A stretch of 42,238 bases of DNA. Source: Paenarthrobacter sp. CM16. GTDB taxonomy: Bacteria > Actinomycetota > Actinomycetes > Actinomycetales > Micrococcaceae. Location: assembly GCF_013179505.1 (NCBI RefSeq), contig NZ_JABMCX010000002.1, forward strand, positions 1-42,238. The letters are read 5' to 3'. The notes below the pieces were generated by a model. That model was not told the origin of the DNA, did no database searches, and worked only from the letters and a program-made list of their open reading frames with translations. The position numbers and the translations under genes were made by a program. This document shows positions 6,804-23,214 of this stretch, piece by piece (position 1 is the stretch's first letter; the number at the start of each line of letters is the position of its first letter).

Positions 6804-9476
6804 ATGAGTGACGAAACTCCCGAAGTCCCGGCGGAATCAAACGACGCCGAGGAAGTTGTTCTTGAGGGTGATGTGCTGACCGACCGCGTGGAGCAGGTGG
6901 ACCTGCAGACCGAAATGCAGCGGTCCTACCTGGACTACGCCATGGCCGTGATTGTTGGCCGCGCCTTGCCGGATGTCCGTGACGGCTTGAAGCCGGTGCA
7001 CCGCCGCGTTCTGTACGCAATGTTCGACGGCGGTTACCGCCCGGACCGCTCGTTCAATAAGTGTGCCCGCGTGGTGGGCGATGTCATGGGTACCTACCAC
7101 CCGCACGGTGACATGGCGATCTACGACGCCTTGGTCCGCCTGATCCAGGACTGGACCATGCGGTACCCGCTGGCACTTGGCCAGGGCAACTTCGGTTCAC
7201 CGGGCAATGACGGCGCTGCCGCACCGCGTTACACCGAAACCAAAATGGCACAGCTGGCCATGGAAATGGTCCGGGACATTGACGAGGAAACCGTCGACTT
7301 CCAGGACAACTACGACGGCAAGAACCAGGAACCCACCATCCTGCCGGCGCGTTTCCCCAACTTGCTGGTCAACGGGTCCTCCGGCATCGCCGTCGGCATG
7401 GCCACCAACATTCCGCCGCACAACCTTCGCGAGGTTGCCGAGGGTGTGCAGTGGGCGCTTGAAAACCCCACAGCCACGCGCGAAGAGCTCCTAGAGGCTC
7501 TGCTGGTCCGCATCAAGGGCCCCGATTTCCCCACCGGCGCCACCATTCTGGGCCACAAGGGAATAGAAGACGCTTACCGCACGGGCCGTGGCTCCATCAC
7601 GATGCGCGCCGTGGTCAACGTCGAGGAACTCCAGGGCCGTACCTGCCTGGTGGTCACCGAGCTTCCCTACCAGGCCAACCCGGACAACCTGGCGATCAAG
7701 ATTGCCGAACTGGTCAAGGACGGAAAGATCTCAGGCATTGCGGACCTCCGCGATGAAACCTCAGGCCGTACCGGCCAGCGCCTGGTGATCGTGCTCAAGC
7801 GCGATGCCGTGGCCAAGGTGGTCCTGAACAACCTTTACAAGCACACGCAGTTGCAGGACAACTTCTCGGCAAACATGCTGGCAATTGTCGACGGCGTCCC
7901 GCGCACCTTGAGCCTGGACGCCTTCATCCGGCACTGGGTTGCGCACCAGATGGACGTCATTGCTCGCCGCACCCGCTACCGCCTGCGTAAGGCAGAGGAA
8001 GAAGCGCACATCCTGCGTGCACTCCTCAAGGCACTGGACATGCTGGATGAAGTCATTGCCCTCATCCGAGCTTCCAACACCACAGAGGCTGCGCGTGAAG
8101 GCCTGATGGAACTGCTGGAGATCGACGAACTCCAAGCCCGCGCCATCCTGGATATGCAGTTGCGCCGCCTTGCTGCCTTGGAGCGCCAAAAGATCCAGGA
8201 CCGCCACTCCGAGCTCGAGGCAATGATCCAGGAGTACAACGCGATCCTGGCTTCCGAAGAGCGGCAGCGCCAGATCATCAGCGAAGAACTTGCCGAGATC
8301 GTGGCCAAGCACGGCGATGACCGGCGCACCCACATCCTGATGGGCTTCGACGGGGACATGTCCATGGAGGACCTGATCCCTGAAGAGGAAATGGTTGTCA
8401 CTATTACGCGTGGCGGCTACGTCAAGCGCACACGCAGCGACAACTACCGTTCCCAGCAGCGCGGCGGCAAGGGCATCAAGGGTGCCCAATTGCGCGGCGA
8501 CGACGTCGTGGAGCACTTCTTCGTCACCACCACCCACCACTGGCTCCTGTTCTTCACCAACCTGGGGCGGGTCTACCGTGCCAAGGCTTACGAGCTCGCC
8601 GAGGCGGGACGCGATGCCAAGGGCCAGCACGTTGCCAACCTGCTCGCTTTCCAGCCGGACGAGCATATCGCCCAGGTCCTGGACTTGCGGGACTACCAGC
8701 AGGCCCCCTACTTGGTGCTCGCCACCAAGAACGGGCTGGTCAAGAAGACAAGGCTGGAAGACTATGACACCAACCGCACGGCCGGTGTCATTGCCATCAA
8801 CCTGCGCGACGAGGACGAGCTGGTTTCTGCCCAGCTGGTCAGCGAGACAGATGACCTTCTTCTGGTCTCACGCAAGGGCCAGTCCATCCGCTTCACAGCC
8901 ACCGATGACGCATTGCGGCCCATGGGCCGTGCCACGTCGGGTGTAACGGGTATGAAGTTCCGTGAAGACGACGAACTGCTTGCCGCAGACGTAGTCCAGG
9001 ACGGCTCTTTCGTGTTCATCGTGACCGAAGGCGGCTACGCCAAGCGGACCGCAGTGGACGAATACCGCCTGCAGGGCCGTGGCGGCCTGGGCATCAAGGT
9101 AGCCAAGCTTGCCGAAGACCGCGGTGACCTTGTGGGCGCCTTGATCGTGCAGGAAGAGGACGAAGTCCTGGTGGTTATGGAAGGCGGCAAGGTGGTCCGC
9201 TCGGCGGTAACCGGCGTCCCTGCCAAGGGCCGCGACACCATGGGCGTCATCTTTGCCAAGCCGGACAAGAATGACCGCATTATTGAGGTTGCGCGCAACA
9301 GCGAACGCGGCCTGGAAGTCGAAGAGTCAGAAGACGGACTCGACGATGACGTAACGTTGGCTGCAAACGACGGCGCCTCTGAGGCGACCGTGACGGCCGA
9401 AACGGAAAACGACGCAGACCCGGAAACCGAAACGGGCGCGGAGCTGAACGAAGACAACACCGGAGGTAACGAGTGA
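6804..9476 (+). CDS. gyrA: DNA gyrase subunit A
   Basis: GyrA carries the DNA-cleaving tyrosine and the DNA-wrapping C-terminal domain. The 890-residue product has the catalytic Tyr143 in AAPRYTE and the quinolone-binding region [15 protein letters not shown]. Position 104, equal to E. coli Ser83, is Met, while Asp108 (E. coli Asp87) is kept. The C-terminal domain has a GyrA-box ([10 protein letters not shown]) and a second related motif (QGRGGLGIK) like that described in mycobacteria. The last 50 or so residues are strongly acidic, a tail known in other GyrA proteins to modulate DNA wrapping. The stop overlaps the GTG of the next gene by 4 bases (GTGA), so the two are coupled. Confidence 0.96.
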
Positions 9477-17402: not shown

Positions 17403-18032
17403 CTACCTTTCCTGACTTCCAGCCGGCCCGACCGGTTGCCGCAGGATGGTCTTGAGCTTTTCCGGCGCGGTCCGGCGAGGATCGCTGAGATAGATCTCGT
17501 GATGCTTGCCTGTCATAACCATCGACTGCGCGGGAATGAAGCCGTTGTGCATCTCCTCTAGCACGGGTGCCTCGTCATCGTAGGACCCTATGTGTAGTGT
17601 TTGCACGCTCAAGCCCTCCTCAAGCGGCTCCAAGCGAAGAGCATCCAACGCCGGGGCCTCCCCCTTCTTCGCTACCACCTCGCGCGCCGCATCAAAGTGC
17701 CCGGGCCCAATCCAGTCCGGGACCATGGTCATCAGCGTCCAATCCCACTGTGACTTGTCCCTGGCGCTGGTGAAGGACTCCATGTCCGCCGCCCACCAGA
17801 GGGCCTCCAACGGCATCACTGCATAATCCTGACCCAACTGGTCCTTGCTGAAGAACTTGAGCTTGTAGGCAACCGGATACAGCGTTGCCAGAGCATCCTT
17901 GTAAGCCTGTGCGCTATTGGGGTCTCCGTGGCCGTCAATCATGAGGAATTGCAGCGTGGGAACGTTGACCACCGCGAACTCGCCGTGCTTGGCGCTATAG
18001 GTGGGGACCAGCTTTTTAAAGTCGCTCTTCAT
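17403..18032 (-). CDS. GyrI-like small-molecule-binding domain protein
   Basis: A 209-residue protein resembling the GyrI-like/effector-binding fold (FAVVNVPTLQFLMIDGHGDPNSAQAYKDALATLY, later YAVMPLEALWW). Members bind small molecules, and some inhibit gyrase or act as multidrug sensors, but most are uncharacterised, and the name does not prove a link with the gyrase genes nearby. The ATG at 18032 is preferred to the upstream start at 18089 because GGTGATC lies just before it and the 19 extra residues do not look conserved. Its promoter must lie at the left edge of the DnaA-box region. Confidence 0.7.
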   Translation of the reverse strand: MKSDFKKLVPTYSAKHGEFAVVNVPTLQFLMIDGHGDPNSAQAYKDALATLYPVAYKLKFFSKDQLGQDYAVMPLEALWWAADMESFTSARDKSQWDWTLMTMVPDWIGPGHFDAAREVVAKKGEAPALDALRLEPLEEGLSVQTLHIGSYDDEAPVLEEMHNGFIPAQSMVMTGKHHEIYLSDPRRTAPEKLKTILRQPVGPAGSQER

Positions 18033-18111
18033 GTGATCACCGTACGCCCAGGTGGGCTGAACCTTCCGGGCCCGACAGTCCGCGGCCATCAGCGGTGGTT
18101 ATCCACATCTG

Positions 18112-18147
18112 TTATCCACACTGTGTGTAACTTACAATCGTGTAGTT
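18112..18147 (+). repeat. 36-bp box-containing module, copy 1
   Basis: A DnaA box (18112-18120), 7 bases, then TAACTTACA-AT-CGTGTAGTT (18128-18147). It matches copy 2 at 18331-18366 in 29 of 36 positions, and the last 20 bases differ only at two central positions. A second box lies just upstream at 18099. Confidence 0.8.
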
Positions 18148-18207
18148 AGCCCTTCTTCCCCTCACGCGCACCGTTAAACGAGCAGATATCCCCCGAAAGG
18201 CATGCTT

Positions 18208-18227
18208 TTCTCCACACCTGTGGATAA
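18208..18227. repeat. Head-to-head DnaA double box, copy 1
   Basis: TTCTCCACA, CC, TGTGGATAA: two facing boxes with a 2-base spacer. The same layout recurs at 18429-18448 and 18751-18770. A further minus-strand box starts 33 bases after the right half. Confidence 0.8.
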
Positions 18228-18330
18228 CTTTGTCCCCTTCGGGTGCTGTTTTGTGGACAAAAGCGGTCTCGAACGGCCAGCTGGGGATAACCCTGTTAAT
18301 GACTCACCACAGCTCTGGCTATCAACAGGC

Positions 18331-18366
18331 TTATCAACATTGTTAATAACTTACACACGTGTAGTT
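18331..18366 (+). repeat. 36-bp box-containing module, copy 2
   Basis: TTATCAACA (18331-18339), 7 bases, then TAACTTACA-CA-CGTGTAGTT (18347-18366), spaced exactly as in copy 1, 219 bp away. It is the most AT-rich part of the region. A weaker box, CTATCAACA, precedes it at 18319. Confidence 0.8.
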
Positions 18367-18428
18367 CAGCGTCCGGACCGCGCTTGGATGACCGGCATTG
18401 CAGGGATGTGTTCAGGGAAACCCACAAG

Positions 18429-18448
18429 TTTTCCCCACCTGTGGATAA
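18429..18448. repeat. Head-to-head DnaA double box, copy 2
   Basis: TTTTCCCCA, CC, TGTGGATAA. The left half is degenerate, the right half perfect. A related minus-strand word TGTGGGTAG starts 11 bases after the right half (18451). Confidence 0.7.
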
Positions 18449-18750
18449 CTTGTGGGTAGGGCGATGTTATTAAGTGGGTAACTTCAATGTTCCGCGGTTT
18501 CCCCAAGCGCCGGCCTGAACACTGCTGTCGCGACGGGATCATGTCCGTTGACCTATTGGGTGTTTCTGATGAGCCCTTGACGTGGCTCGAGGCAAAACCG
18601 GCAATCCCGGGTTGTTGAACTTTGCGTGAAGACTGGAGCACTATCCACAGTTCGGTCCACAGTGGGTATAACCGACCACGCACATCGATACGCCAAAATC
18701 CGGTGCGGGTCCAACGATCAGCGCGATATTTGCATGGATGTCCACAGAGT

Positions 18751-18770
18751 TTATCCACGCCTGTGGATAA
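18751..18770. repeat. Head-to-head DnaA double box, copy 3
   Basis: TTATCCACG, CC, TGTGGATAA. A TGTGGACAA box starts 22 bases after the right half (18784). It is the last dense group before the tag gene. Confidence 0.8.
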
Positions 18771-18841
18771 AGTTGCGCACTTCTGTGGACAAGGGTTGGG
18801 GATTTCCGGCCGCCCGCTCTACGCCGTGCCGGGGCCGGGTC

Positions 18842-19441
18842 TCAGGCCCAAACTCCGGACGAACCGCGGCGATGACTGTCCAGAAGGTGGGTGTCGATGA
18901 TGCCGACTGCTTCCATGAGGGCGTACATCGTGGTGGGTCCAACGAAAGCGAAGCCCTTCTTCCGCAGTGCCTTGGAGAGCGCGATCGACTCAGGGGACGT
19001 TGTGGGGATGTCAGCAAAGGTGCGTGGAGCCGGGGTTGCTTCCGGCTGAAAAGACCAGACGAAGTCAACCAGGCCACCTTCTTCGCGCAGGGCAATGGTG
19101 GCCTTGGCATTGGTGATGGCCGCGCGGATCTTGAGACGGTTCCGGACGATGCCGGCATCCAGCATGAGCCGTTCGACGTCCTCTTCCGTGAAGGCGGCAA
19201 CACTCTCCGGATGGAAGTCCAGGAAGGCGGCCCGGAATGCCTCCCGTTTCCTCAGGATGGTGGCCCAGGACAGACCTGCTTGAAACGCCTCGAGGCTGAT
19301 GCGTTCATACATGCCCTGCTCATCGCGGACAGGCATACCCCACTCGTGATCGTAGTAAGCCTGCATGAGAGGGTCTGAAGCTGCCCACACAGGGCGGGCG
19401 AGGCCGTCTTCACCAATGATGGTTCCGTTGTCCGGGCTCAT
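18842..19441 (-). CDS. tag: DNA-3-methyladenine glycosylase I (Tag-like), altered zinc site
   Basis: A 199-residue helix-hairpin-helix glycosylase expected to remove 3-methyladenine from DNA. It keeps LEAFQAGLSW (with the conserved Glu), DAGIVRNRLKI, DFVWSF and GFAFVGPTTMYALMEAVGI. Aligned by eye with E. coli Tag, zinc ligands Cys4, His17 and Cys179 are replaced by Pro17, Tyr30 and Ser189; only His185 (E. coli His175) remains. So the zinc clasp is probably absent, while the substrate pocket looks intact. The ATG at 19441 follows GGAGGAG. The gene is 91 bases after alkB on the same strand and may belong to the alkylation-repair operon. Confidence 0.88.
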   Translation of the reverse strand: MSPDNGTIIGEDGLARPVWAASDPLMQAYYDHEWGMPVRDEQGMYERISLEAFQAGLSWATILRKREAFRAAFLDFHPESVAAFTEEDVERLMLDAGIVRNRLKIRAAITNAKATIALREEGGLVDFVWSFQPEATPAPRTFADIPTTSPESIALSKALRKKGFAFVGPTTMYALMEAVGIIDTHLLDSHRRGSSGVWA

Positions 19442-19532
19442 GCATGCTCCTCCGCGGCCAGGGTTGGTGGACCCAGGCCAGTTGTTGTGGCTTCCGGGGA
19501 TATTCTGCCGTGCGGCCCTGACATTCAGGGTC

Positions 19533-20249
19533 CTAGGACAACCCGGTGACCCTCATGGTGATGTTGATTCTGCCGTGCGTGAGGCCACAATCCGTCGGAG
19601 CCGTTCCAGGAAGGACTTTGGGAATGCCGTGATAGGCAAACCTGGAGGGCCCACCGAAGACGAACAGGTCTCCGGAGCGGAGCTCCACGTCCGTATACGG
19701 CTTGGTCCGGGTCTCGGTGTTGCCGAACCGGAAAAGGCAGGACTCCCCGATGCTGAGGGACACTACCGGGGCGGTGGAGCGTTCGTCCTTATCCTGATGC
19801 ATACCCATCGCCGCGCCGTCGTCGTAGAAGTTCACCAGCGCGGCGTCGGGCGTGTAGTCCTCGGCGGGATCCGCCAAAGTCCCGTCAACGACGCCTACGG
19901 AGCTGTATGCGTCCGCAACAGCCTTCCGCCCCAAACGAACCATCCAGTCGGGGAAGTCGAGTACAGGACGGCCGTTGACGTCGGTAGCTTCCCGCGTGTA
20001 CTTGTACGGCTGCCAATGCCAGCCAAGGCACACGGTACGCACTGACATCCGGCGCCCGCCCGGAAGGGTTGCCGCCCGCAAAGGAACCGGACCCTGGGTC
20101 CATTCGCCGAAGCGTCCCACAATCCACCGCTGCTGTTCCGAAGTGAGCCAGCCCGGAACATGAACCGCACCTGGCGCAATCAGCCGGGGTTCGGCGTCGT
20201 ACGCTTCCGGTTGCACCAACTCCAACGGGAACAGGGCGTCCTCGCTCAC
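19533..20249 (-). CDS. alkB: AlkB-type 2-oxoglutarate/Fe(II) dioxygenase
   Basis: A 238-residue oxidative demethylase expected to repair 1-methyladenine and 3-methylcytosine in DNA or RNA. Iron ligands are His151 and Asp153 in MHQDKDE and His207 in FAYHGIP; the 2-oxoglutarate-binding arginines are Arg227 and Arg233 in HGRINITMR. The GTG at 20249 is chosen because it overlaps the preceding methyltransferase stop as GTGA and has GGAGG 7 bases upstream; a longer frame lies inside that gene. It is the last tightly coupled gene of the ogt-sigma-ogt-alkB unit. Confidence 0.92.
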   Translation of the reverse strand: MSEDALFPLELVQPEAYDAEPRLIAPGAVHVPGWLTSEQQRWIVGRFGEWTQGPVPLRAATLPGGRRMSVRTVCLGWHWQPYKYTREATDVNGRPVLDFPDWMVRLGRKAVADAYSSVGVVDGTLADPAEDYTPDAALVNFYDDGAAMGMHQDKDERSTAPVVSLSIGESCLFRFGNTETRTKPYTDVELRSGDLFVFGGPSRFAYHGIPKVLPGTAPTDCGLTHGRINITMRVTGLS

Positions 20250-20875
20250 GCCGCTGCCTCCAAGGTCAGCAGCGCAAGTTTGGCCTCCGGCCCCCCGAGG
20301 TAACCGCCAAAGCTGCCATCCGACTTCACAACTCGATGACACGGGAGGATGACGGGAAGCGGATTGGTGGCGCAGGCTGTTCCGACAGCCCTGACAGCAT
20401 GGGGGCTGCCCGCGGCCAAAGCAACTTCCGCGTAGCTTTCCGTGCGGCCGTAGGCGATGCGAGGCAGGTGCTGCAGAACGCTCAGCCTGAACCCGCGTGT
20501 GAGGCGGAAGTCCACTATGAGATCGAACTCCGTCCGCGTGCCGCCAAAATACTCCTCGAGTTGCCGCGCAGCATCATCCAACCGTGCCGGGGCCTCGAGG
20601 ATGCGGGGGCTGATGGTCTGGGACAGGCGCTGCAGGACCTCGGCATGGTTCTCCACCTCAAAGGCCACCCGGACTATTCCGCGGTCAGTGGCAGCCAACA
20701 GGAGCTTGCCCACAGGCGAGTCCACCACTCTGTAGGCAACGTCCAAGGTGTGGGTCAGCTGGGCGTCGCGGGCAAGCCGGGCACGAAGGCTCGCAAGCGC
20801 GGGTTCCAGGCCGGCGTCCAGGGGCTCCAGGAGCGACAGCACGTCCACATGGTCAGGGCTTGATTCAAGGGTCAT
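20246..20875 (-). CDS. Methylated-DNA--protein-cysteine methyltransferase with N-terminal extension
   Basis: A 209-residue suicide repair protein that takes a methyl group from O6-methylguanine onto Cys179 in LPCHRVV. The helix-turn-helix region (TESYAEVALAAGSPHAVRAVGTACATNP) and GGYLGG after the active site are typical. Compared with the 169-residue paralogue two genes upstream, it has about 45 extra N-terminal residues (LLEPLDAGLEPALASLRARL and on) predicted helical. Its ATG overlaps the sigma factor stop as ATGA. A gene in this place is often a sigma-factor partner, so a sensor or anti-sigma role for the extension is possible but unproven. It could also serve only in repair. Confidence 0.9.
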   Translation of the reverse strand: MTLESSPDHVDVLSLLEPLDAGLEPALASLRARLARDAQLTHTLDVAYRVVDSPVGKLLLAATDRGIVRVAFEVENHAEVLQRLSQTISPRILEAPARLDDAARQLEEYFGGTRTEFDLIVDFRLTRGFRLSVLQHLPRIAYGRTESYAEVALAAGSPHAVRAVGTACATNPLPVILPCHRVVKSDGSFGGYLGGPEAKLALLTLEAAA

Positions 20876-21420
20876 CGGATTTCTCCCTTCGGAAGTGAAT
20901 GTGCCAGTTCGGGCCCATCAACCAACGCCGACGGACCAGCCAGTGCGCTGCGGAGGGCCTTGACGCCGTCCGCCCCGGCGCGTCGTGCAGCCTCGGGAGT
21001 GCCTCCCAGCATTACGGCTATGTCCTTATAGGGAAGTCCAGCCAGATAGTGGTACGCCACGGCTTGCCGTTGCTTCGGTGGAAGGTGGGTCACTGCGTCC
21101 AGCAACTCGGTGTGGTCCTCACCCGGAAGGCCAAGGTTGGAAGCATGCTCCGGCGGGGAATCCATCGGCAGGGCCCGGCGACTGCCGGCACGCAGGTGGT
21201 CGATGCATTTCCGGTGTGCGATGGTGACCAACCACGCCTGAACGTTGGCCTCCTGTGGAAGGTCCGGATACGCCTGGAGGGCCGCGAGGAAGGTATCGGA
21301 CCAGGCGTCGTCAGCGTCGTGCACGCCCAAGACCGCCCGGCACACCCGCAGCACAGTGGCGCCCTGTTCATCCACCACCAACTCGAAAGGCTTTTTGCTG
21401 ACCGCCTGCCGCTTACCCAT
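20872..21420 (-). CDS. Sigma-70 family (ECF-like) RNA polymerase sigma factor
   Basis: A 182-residue two-domain sigma factor. The region 2 part includes VLRVCRAVLGVHDADDAWSDTFLAAL and WLVTIAHRKCIDHLRAGSRR; region 4 is LPPKQRQAVAYHYLAGLPYKDIAVMLGGTPEAARRAGADGVKALRSAL, with a helix-turn-helix. It lies between two methyltransferase genes and overlaps both by 4 bases (ATGA each side), so all are translated from one message. No zinc-type anti-sigma gene is adjacent. The context suggests it directs transcription of the repair genes, probably its own operon, after alkylation damage; this is inference. Confidence 0.85.
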   Translation of the reverse strand: MGKRQAVSKKPFELVVDEQGATVLRVCRAVLGVHDADDAWSDTFLAALQAYPDLPQEANVQAWLVTIAHRKCIDHLRAGSRRALPMDSPPEHASNLGLPGEDHTELLDAVTHLPPKQRQAVAYHYLAGLPYKDIAVMLGGTPEAARRAGADGVKALRSALAGPSALVDGPELAHSLPKGEIR

Positions 21421-21929
21421 CAGAAGAGCTTTCCTTCTTTCACACTCACCGGTTCTTCCAGTTCAAGAAGGAAGCGCTTGTTCGGCAGCCCGCCCGCGTA
21501 CCCCGTCAGTTGACCCTTGCGCCCCACCACGCGGTGGCACGGAATGATGATGCTGATGGGATTGCGACCGACCGCGGAGCCCACGGCCTGCGCCAAGTGG
21601 GGATCGCCCAATTCAGAGGCCAACTCGCCGTAGCTGACGGTTTCTCCGAAAGGGATATTTTGAAGCCGGGTCCAGACTTTCTCCTGGAACGGGTTCCCGC
21701 GTGCCTCGTGCGGGACATCGAAAGCAGTGCGGTGGCCACCAAGATACTCATCAAGTTCGCGCCGGGTGTTGGCGAACACGGGATCATCAAGCCCCGCGGG
21801 GGTCCCGAAGTAGTCGGGTGGAGGCATATGCCAGTGGCCCTCGTAGAAGATACCCGTCAAAAATTCCCCGCGGGCAGTCAGCGTCAACTGCCCCAACGGG
21901 GAATCCATGATGGTGTGCCGGATGCTCAT
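21420..21929 (-). CDS. ogt: Methylated-DNA--protein-cysteine methyltransferase
   Basis: A 169-residue O6-alkylguanine-DNA alkyltransferase of usual length. It begins MDSPLGQLTLTA, with NPFQEKVWTRLQNIPFGETVSYGELA and the active-site Cys131 in IPCHRVVG, followed by LTGYAGGLPNKRFLLELE. It is the first gene of the minus-strand repair unit. The ATG at 21929 has no clear Shine-Dalgarno, consistent with the short leader predicted from the promoter at 21951-21975. Its stop overlaps the start of the sigma factor gene. Confidence 0.94.
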   Translation of the reverse strand: MSIRHTIMDSPLGQLTLTARGEFLTGIFYEGHWHMPPPDYFGTPAGLDDPVFANTRRELDEYLGGHRTAFDVPHEARGNPFQEKVWTRLQNIPFGETVSYGELASELGDPHLAQAVGSAVGRNPISIIIPCHRVVGRKGQLTGYAGGLPNKRFLLELEEPVSVKEGKLF

Positions 21930-21950
21930 ATCTTGTAGACGTCCACGGCC

Positions 21951-21975
21951 ACGGAGATGTGAGGTGCGGGTTTCC
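21951..21975 (-). promoter_or_regulatory. ECF-type promoter candidate of the alkylation-repair operon
   Basis: On the minus strand GGAAAC (21975 to 21970) and CGT (21953 to 21951) are separated by 16 bases, the spacing of ECF sigma promoters. The -35 starts at the last base of the crgA stop codon and the -10 lies about 20 bases before the ogt ATG. It would suit the sigma factor encoded in the operon, but the match is to a short consensus. Confidence 0.45.
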
Positions 21976-22229
21976 TACGAGCGCCAGCGCGTGGTCATCA
22001 GGAAGCCCACAATGGCAATGCCGAAGCCGGCAACAATGTTCCAGGAAGCCCAGTCGCGGACAGGGAACTGCCCCTCGGTGATGTAAAAGGTGATGATCCA
22101 GATGAGTCCGAGGATCATCAGTCCAAACATGACTGCTTTGTACCAAACAGGGTTCGGCTTGTACTGCTGCGCTGCGGAAGCCTGCTGGTCCTGACGGGCA
22201 GGCCGCTTGCGGGGCTTGGACTCGGGCAC
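21975..22229 (-). CDS. crgA: Cell division protein CrgA
   Basis: An 84-residue actinobacterial septation protein that, in relatives, interacts with FtsZ, FtsQ and cell-wall enzymes. A basic, Gln-rich N-terminus (about 25 residues) leads to YKPNPVWYKAVMFGLM and two membrane helices (about 31-48 and 60-79) ending TTRWRS. The GTG start has AAGGAGG 5 bases upstream. It is divergent from the sortase gene. The crgA - sortase-like - pabA/trpG - pknB order matches other actinobacteria. Confidence 0.95.
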   Translation of the reverse strand: MPESKPRKRPARQDQQASAAQQYKPNPVWYKAVMFGLMILGLIWIITFYITEGQFPVRDWASWNIVAGFGIAIVGFLMTTRWRS

Positions 22230-22401
22230 GGATCCTCCTTGGCTGTACGTGGTACCCGTTCCAGCCAGCCTTGATATCCTGCAGGAAGGAAAAATTCCAG
22301 CGGTTAACGGCCACGCGGCGTTCCGGGTTGGTTCTAGCTGTCAAGTCTAGCCGCAACTCGGGGTCCGCCCGCCGCGCCCGCGCCCGATCCGAGGAGACGC
22401 T

Positions 22402-23214
22402 GTGGCGCATCAGCAGACGACGACGGCTTCCGCCGTGCCGTCCAGGCGCCGGGGGCAGGAACAAGTTCCCCGCAGGCCTCTCCGTGCCTCGGACGTCATC
22501 CGAAAAATCAGCCAGGTGCTGGGTGAACTCCTCATCACCGGCGGTGTTGTGCTGTTGCTCTTTGTGGGCTGGCAATTGTGGTGGACCAACGTTGAGGCGG
22601 ACGCCAAACAGACCGAAGCCATACAAAACTTCGCCGGGCAACTCACCAGTCCTGTGATACCGGCAGAGTCCGTGGACCCAACGACGTTCGGGGATCCGGT
22701 AGTGGGGACAGCCCCTGCCAACGGGGAAACGATCGGGATCATGTACATCCCCCGCTTCGGCGCTGACTACACGCGTCCCATTATTGAGGGCACCGGCGCC
22801 GACGTCCTGGACACGCTGGGCCTGGGGCACTACGGAAGCACCAGCATGCCGGGTGCCGTGGGCAATTTTGCGGTGGCCGGCCACCGGCAAACGCACGGAG
22901 CAGTTCTCGACAGCATCCACACGCTGGTCCCCGGGGACAAGATCTACGTCCAGACTGCCGACGGGTTCTACACCTACGTCTTCCGCAACAACCAGATCGT
23001 GCTCCCCAACCGCACTGATGTGCTGTTGCCTGTGCCAACCCAGCAAGGCGTTGCGCCGGAGGAAAGAATCCTGACAATGACCAGTTGCAACCCGCGCTTC
23101 GGGTCACAGGAACGCATCATCGCCTACTCCGTCATGGAGGGGTGGCAACCGGCCTCGGCAGGACCGCCGTCGGACATTGCCGCCCAAGTAGCCAAGGCGC
23201 AAGGAAAGGGGTAA
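22402..23214 (+). CDS. Class E sortase
   Basis: A 270-residue membrane-anchored cysteine transpeptidase that attaches surface proteins to the cell wall. After a basic N-terminus one membrane helix spans about 43-62. The catalytic domain has MYIPRFGADYTRPIIEG, the His in NFAVAGHR, and the Cys in LTMTSCNPRFGSQERII, with the downstream Arg. Actinobacterial sortases of this group usually recognise LAXTG motifs, but no substrate with such a tail is in the window. The GTG follows GAGGAG at 22391-22396. A small membrane protein and pabA follow almost without gaps. Confidence 0.92.
   Translation: MAHQQTTTASAVPSRRRGQEQVPRRPLRASDVIRKISQVLGELLITGGVVLLLFVGWQLWWTNVEADAKQTEAIQNFAGQLTSPVIPAESVDPTTFGDPVVGTAPANGETIGIMYIPRFGADYTRPIIEGTGADVLDTLGLGHYGSTSMPGAVGNFAVAGHRQTHGAVLDSIHTLVPGDKIYVQTADGFYTYVFRNNQIVLPNRTDVLLPVPTQQGVAPEERILTMTSCNPRFGSQERIIAYSVMEGWQPASAGPPSDIAAQVAKAQGKG

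Follow-up and report, generated by a model that had tools for sequence, protein, structure and literature searches.

A conserved CTCACA-N16-CGTCTAC element as the probable, self-controlled promoter of an actinobacterial alkylation-repair operon with its own ECF-type sigma factor

Comparison of the sequence upstream of a DNA alkylation-repair operon of Paenarthrobacter sp. CM16 with that of its relatives reveals a strongly conserved bipartite element, CTCACA-N16-CGTCTAC, directly before the first gene of the operon. We propose that this element is a promoter read by the ECF-type sigma factor encoded in the same operon, that the two constitute a positive loop, and that the message of the first gene, ogt1, is leaderless; we put the probability of this reading, which is built on sequence comparison, at roughly 0.88. 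RNA polymerase carrying the operon's sigma factor would read CTCACA, the 16-base spacer and CGTCTAC, and would drive the sigma gene itself together with the repair genes (ogt1-sigma-ogt2-alkB, perhaps also tag), in a response that alkylation would be expected to induce. The predicted start of transcription coincides with the ogt1 ATG or lies no more than one or two bases from it, which would make the message leaderless. The operon lies in the window, by which we mean the whole stretch of 42,238 nucleotides analysed (NCBI RefSeq assembly GCF_013179505.1, contig NZ_JABMCX010000002.1, positions 1 to 42,238), and its features are collected in Table 1.

Table 1. Genes of the operon, its upstream neighbor and the sequence elements between them (positions in the window)
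Feature	Coordinates	Strand	Description and evidence
crgA (cell division), upstream neighbor	21975..22229	-	PF06781 6.2e-32; stop TAG = 21977-21975
-35 element ACCTCACATCT, core CTCACA 21963-21958	21955..21965	-	column identity, motif counts, consensus
16-base spacer between CTCACA and CGTC	21942..21957	-	spacer scan 10-22
-10 element CGTCTAC	21935..21941	-	100% identical in 32 distinct crgA-linked loci
AAGAT + ogt1 ATG, likely leaderless start	21927..21934	-	fixed motif-to-ATG distance
ogt1	21420..21929	-	O6-methylguanine-DNA methyltransferase, 169 aa, first gene of the operon; PF01035 1.1e-33, PF02870
ECF-type sigma factor	20872..21420	-	182 aa, regions 2 and 4 only; PF04542 4.6e-12, PF08281 2.2e-11
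ogt2	20246..20875	-	second methyltransferase, 209 aa, N-terminal helix ahead of enzyme core; PF01035 2.1e-27
alkB-type 2-oxoglutarate/Fe(II) demethylase	19533..20249	-	GTG start; PF13532 4e-52
tag, 3-methyladenine DNA glycosylase	18842..19441	-	PF03352 1.1e-67; 91-base gap after alkB
GGAAAC-N16-CGT	21951..21975	-	present; judged a chance match

Reading along the minus strand, crgA is followed by ogt1, the sigma gene, ogt2, alkB and then, across the gap given in Table 1, tag. The ATG of the sigma gene overlaps the ogt1 stop by one base, the sigma gene and ogt2 share the four bases ATGA, and the ogt2 stop overlaps the GTG of alkB in GTGA (the Pfam score of alkB was obtained with the frame taken from 20252, one codon upstream of this GTG). 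The membership of tag in the operon is uncertain: it perhaps stands outside, given that in G001 (L380, about 8120-9002), the one sigma-less genome inspected for this, tag is found directly behind crgA, as would result from an insertion or a loss of the block ogt1-sigma-ogt2-alkB between the two. The window opens with dnaN, recF, gyrB and gyrA, which places the locus near the chromosome origin. The noncoding stretch 18090-18800, between an unnamed open reading frame (17403-18089) and tag and about 17 kb from dnaN, contains seven exact DnaA boxes (TTATCCACA/TTGTCCACA); the window has nine of them, against 0.43 expected for its whole length, and all 8 relatives compared, one of them sigma-less, have clusters of 4 to 8 closely set boxes in the equivalent region.

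The product of the sigma gene scores above the cut-off of TIGR02937 as well as those of PF04542 and PF08281, with the other sigma-70 regions absent, as in the ECF (group 4) sigma factors. Its PDB relatives are likewise headed by ECF sigma factors, and its structure model is helical (mean pLDDT 84.0). No anti-sigma domain of a known type was detected in the operon, for which Pfam finds repair domains only.

Relatives of the locus were collected with the sigma protein at an E-value of 1e-20, which gave matches in 37 of 150 genomes from the genus and in 151 of 295 from the family; 30 loci were taken from the 37 matched genus genomes and 30 from the 151 matched family genomes. The first comparison set comprised 59 family loci, to which 40 more, picked by hand, were then added. 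A wider set of 109 loci was composed of 30 of 81 class-wide matches (one being the window, and the weakest possibly belonging to other ECF groups) and the best 80 of 564 from a scan of named genomes; it consists mostly of named Actinomycetota, among them Arthrobacter, Paenarthrobacter, Streptomyces, Rhodococcus, Nocardia, Mycobacterium, Amycolatopsis, Leifsonia, Kocuria and others, and also takes in a few metagenome bins. Joined, these sets hold 208 loci, or 191 after the removal of duplicates.

Throughout these sets the same bipartite element recurs. CTCAC[AG]-N16-CGT[CT]T is present near the first operon gene in 56 of the 59 loci, against a mononucleotide-shuffle mean of 0.045; a slightly looser pattern is found in 34 of the 40 further family loci, and a looser pattern within 900 bases of the sigma gene in 107 of the 109 wider loci. 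The strict form CTCAC[AG]-N16-CGT[CT] occurs in 176 of the 191 distinct loci (dinucleotide-shuffle mean 1.0, maximum 2), and its spacing is equally strict: when the spacer was varied from 10 to 22 bases, 176 loci were recovered at 16, none at 15 or 17, and no more than 4 at each of the remaining lengths. The 15 loci missed by the strict form include five cut by the edge of the region, in which the looser scan recovers the site, one CTCACT variant and nine with no recognizable site within 800 bases of the sigma gene; 19 of the 191 loci have at least two sites within that distance. The 175 distinct sites yield the consensus A(C/T)CTCAC(A/G)TTT-N13-CGTCTAC, with the T and the C after CGT[CT] each retained in 99%. 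Conservation at the level of the genus is partly due to shared ancestry; where the sigma gene is the first gene, the motif precedes the sigma gene, in upstream sequences that are otherwise different. In L146 (G110), L239, L241, L259 and others, ogt1 and the sigma gene are each preceded by a copy of the promoter. A sigma-methyltransferase pair with the motif also turned up in L286, from a metagenome bin titled Dehalococcoidia, with a sigma factor 63% identical to the one described here; this locus reflects either transfer or a mis-binned actinobacterial contig.

In the 34 loci in which the operon is linked to crgA (32 of them distinct), the position of the element relative to the gene is invariant: it stands at -34 from the ogt1 ATG in all 34, with a crgA-ogt1 gap ranging from 42 to 55 bases. 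The strict motif is seen in 33 of them and CTCACT in L048, and the CTCACA columns are 97-100% identical across the distinct loci. A conserved -35 and a conserved -10 at a fixed spacing of 16 bases constitute the architecture of an ECF-type promoter, and the conserved -35 is not of the GGAAC type.

The sequence-only reading had also placed an ECF promoter directly before ogt1, in a different pair of boxes: GGAAAC at 21975-21970 as the -35 and, 16 bases on, CGT at 21953-21951 as the -10, both on the minus strand. The letters are there, with GGAAAC beginning at the crgA stop and the CGT ending 21 bases before the ATG (21929-21927), close to the 20 or so that had been given; likewise, we find no Shine-Dalgarno-like sequence ahead of this ATG. 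Actinobacterial ECF promoters often have a -35 of the GGAAC type, which together with the correct spacing speaks for this pair. Its frequency is, however, that expected by chance, with 11 copies in the window at up to one mismatch against a shuffle mean of 10.45, and it is kept upstream in 4 of the 59 family loci and in 4 of the 191 distinct sigma loci (shuffle mean 0.55); in the genome of 4.98 Mb, GGAAAC-N15..17-CGT has 202 copies and the reversed control pattern 139. Moreover, among the crgA-linked loci the six GGAAAC columns match the window in 34-91% and the three columns of this CGT in 47, 88 and 59%, whereas the CTCACA and CGTCTAC columns do not vary in this way. GGAAAC was rejected as the -35 for its chance-level frequency in the window, its presence in 4 of 191 loci and its variable columns, and a promoter made of these two boxes is hardly credible. 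What survives of the claim is a bipartite promoter with a 16-base spacer directly before ogt1, its conserved boxes lying about 12 bases nearer to the gene.

Scans of whole genomes tie the element to the sigma gene. In the genome of Paenarthrobacter sp. CM16, CTCACR-N16-CGTCTAC occurs exactly once, at this site, so that the promoter looks dedicated to the operon; a wider regulon in this genome was rejected on the same count, and the suggestion that a motif scan might lead to other DNA-repair genes was not borne out by the corrected motif. Six matches with one mismatch lie beside no operon gene (the true site is itself overlapped by a long open frame), and at up to two mismatches there are 141 matches against 194 for the reversed control, a number that is not enriched and in which weak targets are indistinguishable. 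Across the 150 genus genomes the exact motif occurs at 42 places in 40 genomes. Thirty-seven of these places belong to the operon and are spread over 36 of the 37 genomes that have the sigma gene, the exception being G008 with CTCACT; the other five are in G008, G031, G055, G070 and, as a second occurrence, G114. No operon gene lies within 3 kb of the stray places in the first four of these genomes. Among the 113 sigma-less genus genomes three have an exact match (G031, G055 and G070), none beside operon genes. A search with ogt1 in 30 of these 113 genomes found only a distant methyltransferase in each (32-36% identity in the matched part), and the motif is present at none of these 30 methyltransferase loci; in sigma-less genomes from other families it is present at 2 of 30 (L345 and L367). 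G012 provides a natural test in trans: there the motif is kept before a crgA-linked ogt1-alkB-tag, while the sigma gene and ogt2 lie half a megabase distant, with a copy of the motif in front of them. A second natural test is G110, which carries one copy ahead of ogt1 and another ahead of the sigma gene. The element is thus conserved and tracks the presence of the sigma gene, an association that favors the self-control suggested by the sequence-only reading and from which we infer direct control by the sigma factor.

Bipartite conserved sites can also be operators and, as the dependence of the element on the sigma factor is deduced by comparison, the conserved pair might instead serve another regulator. 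The strict co-occurrence of the motif with the sigma gene and the fixed spacing of 16 bases argue against this, as do the absence of inverted symmetry between the halves and that of any sigma-70-like promoter in a scan of 18800-22500. The CGTC of the -10 and the TCAC core of the -35 are also those of the measured ECF41 promoters (PMC3426412), and we consider an operator very unlikely. Another possibility is that most transcripts of the operon arise by read-through from crgA or from another housekeeping promoter, with the ECF site adding little. The gap between the co-oriented genes crgA and ogt1 is only 45 bases, and the scan of 18800-22500, which returned two terminator-like sites against 3.0 expected, found none between these genes; furthermore, some sigma factor must already be present for a positive loop to begin. 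On the other hand, the ECF site is kept where there is no crgA neighbor and where the sigma gene has a site of its own, and we regard read-through as an unlikely main source of transcription. It is in any case compatible with transcription from an ECF promoter and does not exclude it.

If the element is read as a promoter by the sigma factor of the operon, the start of ogt1 can be interpreted in the same terms. Given that its ATG lies five bases behind CGTCTAC, ogt1 is probably translated from a leaderless message, and such a transcript would account for the missing Shine-Dalgarno sequence. A purine-rich stretch precedes the ATG in some relatives with longer leaders (e.g. L068 and L079). Leaderless messages are reported to be frequent in mycobacteria (PMC4633059, PMC3898074).

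The gene-neighborhoods further point to a candidate for the sensor of this system. An ogt-type gene is found directly downstream of the sigma gene in all 208 loci (59 of 59, 40 of 40 and 109 of 109), and the pair stays together in G012, where the rest of the operon is elsewhere. Taking the first available start, the four-base overlap between the sigma gene and ogt2 is seen in 52 of 59 loci and in 37 of 44, the latter being those of 48 picked loci with usable ogt2 starts (four were dropped). Ogt2 thus occupies the usual place of an anti-sigma factor, apparently in translational coupling with the sigma factor, and is the best candidate for the sensor. All 44 aligned sequences retain its active-site PCHR, and its structure model (mean pLDDT 90.9) has a fold like that of E. 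coli Ada-C and other O6-methylguanine methyltransferases. The N-terminal helix spans residues 9-40 and is modeled with modest confidence (block pLDDT 52-81); in this helix L30 and A38 do not vary and L34 scarcely does. When half of the sigma-linked Ogt2 proteins were used to train a profile, its match to the held-out half began no later than position 25 in all 44 proteins. For methyltransferases of sigma-less class genomes the match begins no earlier than position 36 in 27 of 30, a contrast that may partly reflect the distance of this more divergent set. A distant sigma-like frame is found beside one of these 30 methyltransferases (L346). As the divergence of the sigma-less set weakens this contrast, we advance only tentatively, and with less than even odds, the idea that Ogt2 is a DNA-damage-sensing anti-sigma factor. 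In such a scheme Ogt2 would retain the sigma factor through its N-terminal helix; when an alkylated base is repaired, the active-site cysteine of Ogt2 would be irreversibly methylated, or damaged DNA would occupy it, and the sigma factor thereby released would fire the CTCACA-N16-CGTCTAC promoter. Were this true, it would amount to a sigma/anti-sigma form of the Ada response across Actinomycetota, and it would concern a group for which PMC8999054 gives the mechanism as unknown.

Autoregulated ECF promoters are a known kind, and the nearest measured promoter is that of the ECF41 sigma factors, TGTCACA-n16-CGTC (PMC3426412). The 16-base spacer, the CGTC of the -10 and the TCAC core in the -35 are common to both, as is a single dedicated target operon of which the sigma gene may be a part, but the -35 is TGTCACA there and CTCAC[AG] here. 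The sigma factor described here also differs in being without a SnoaL-type C-terminal extension, its 182 residues comprising regions 2 and 4 only, and in having alkylation-repair genes as neighbors. Membership in ECF41 was rejected on the lack of this extension and on a -35 consensus, from 175 distinct sites, that is not TGTCACA. GGAAC-type ECF promoters are those of the SigE/SigH/SigR kind; they share the bipartite architecture and differ in the -35, the GGAAAC present here being unconserved.

By its gene-neighborhood the sigma factor instead fits ECF122, a name that follows Casas-Pastor et al. 2021 as given in PMC8999054. The entry for this group in PMC8999054 describes an ECF-type sigma factor that has no recognized anti-sigma factor and adjoins an O6-methylguanine DNA methyltransferase, with an example from Cellulomonas; it lists the mechanism as unknown and gives no promoter. 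The methyltransferase neighbor and the absence of an anti-sigma factor of known type are the features shared with the operon described here (PMC8999054), and a Cellulomonas genome is among our loci (L300). No description of the motif was found in the literature searched, a scope that left aside most subscription papers, supplements and the original ECF classification. The element gives this widespread alkylation-repair operon a precisely defined promoter that can be put to the test and is tied to one sigma factor; a promoter read by eye had been 12 bases wrong and had nevertheless indicated the right regulator.

In its overall logic the operon resembles the Ada adaptive response, with ogt, alkB and a glycosylase under apparently self-amplifying control and a methyltransferase as the candidate sensor; it differs in having no Ada domain in the operon and in its control by a sigma factor. 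A canonical Ada zinc domain is encoded elsewhere in the genome of Paenarthrobacter sp. CM16 (G000, C617:11011-11205), which implies that two alkylation responses coexist. As the domain is present in 150 of 150 genus genomes searched, this one included, the idea that the sigma system replaces Ada was rejected. If the methyltransferase is indeed the sensor, the operon would represent a second actinobacterial adaptive response to alkylation, based on a sigma factor and functioning alongside Ada.
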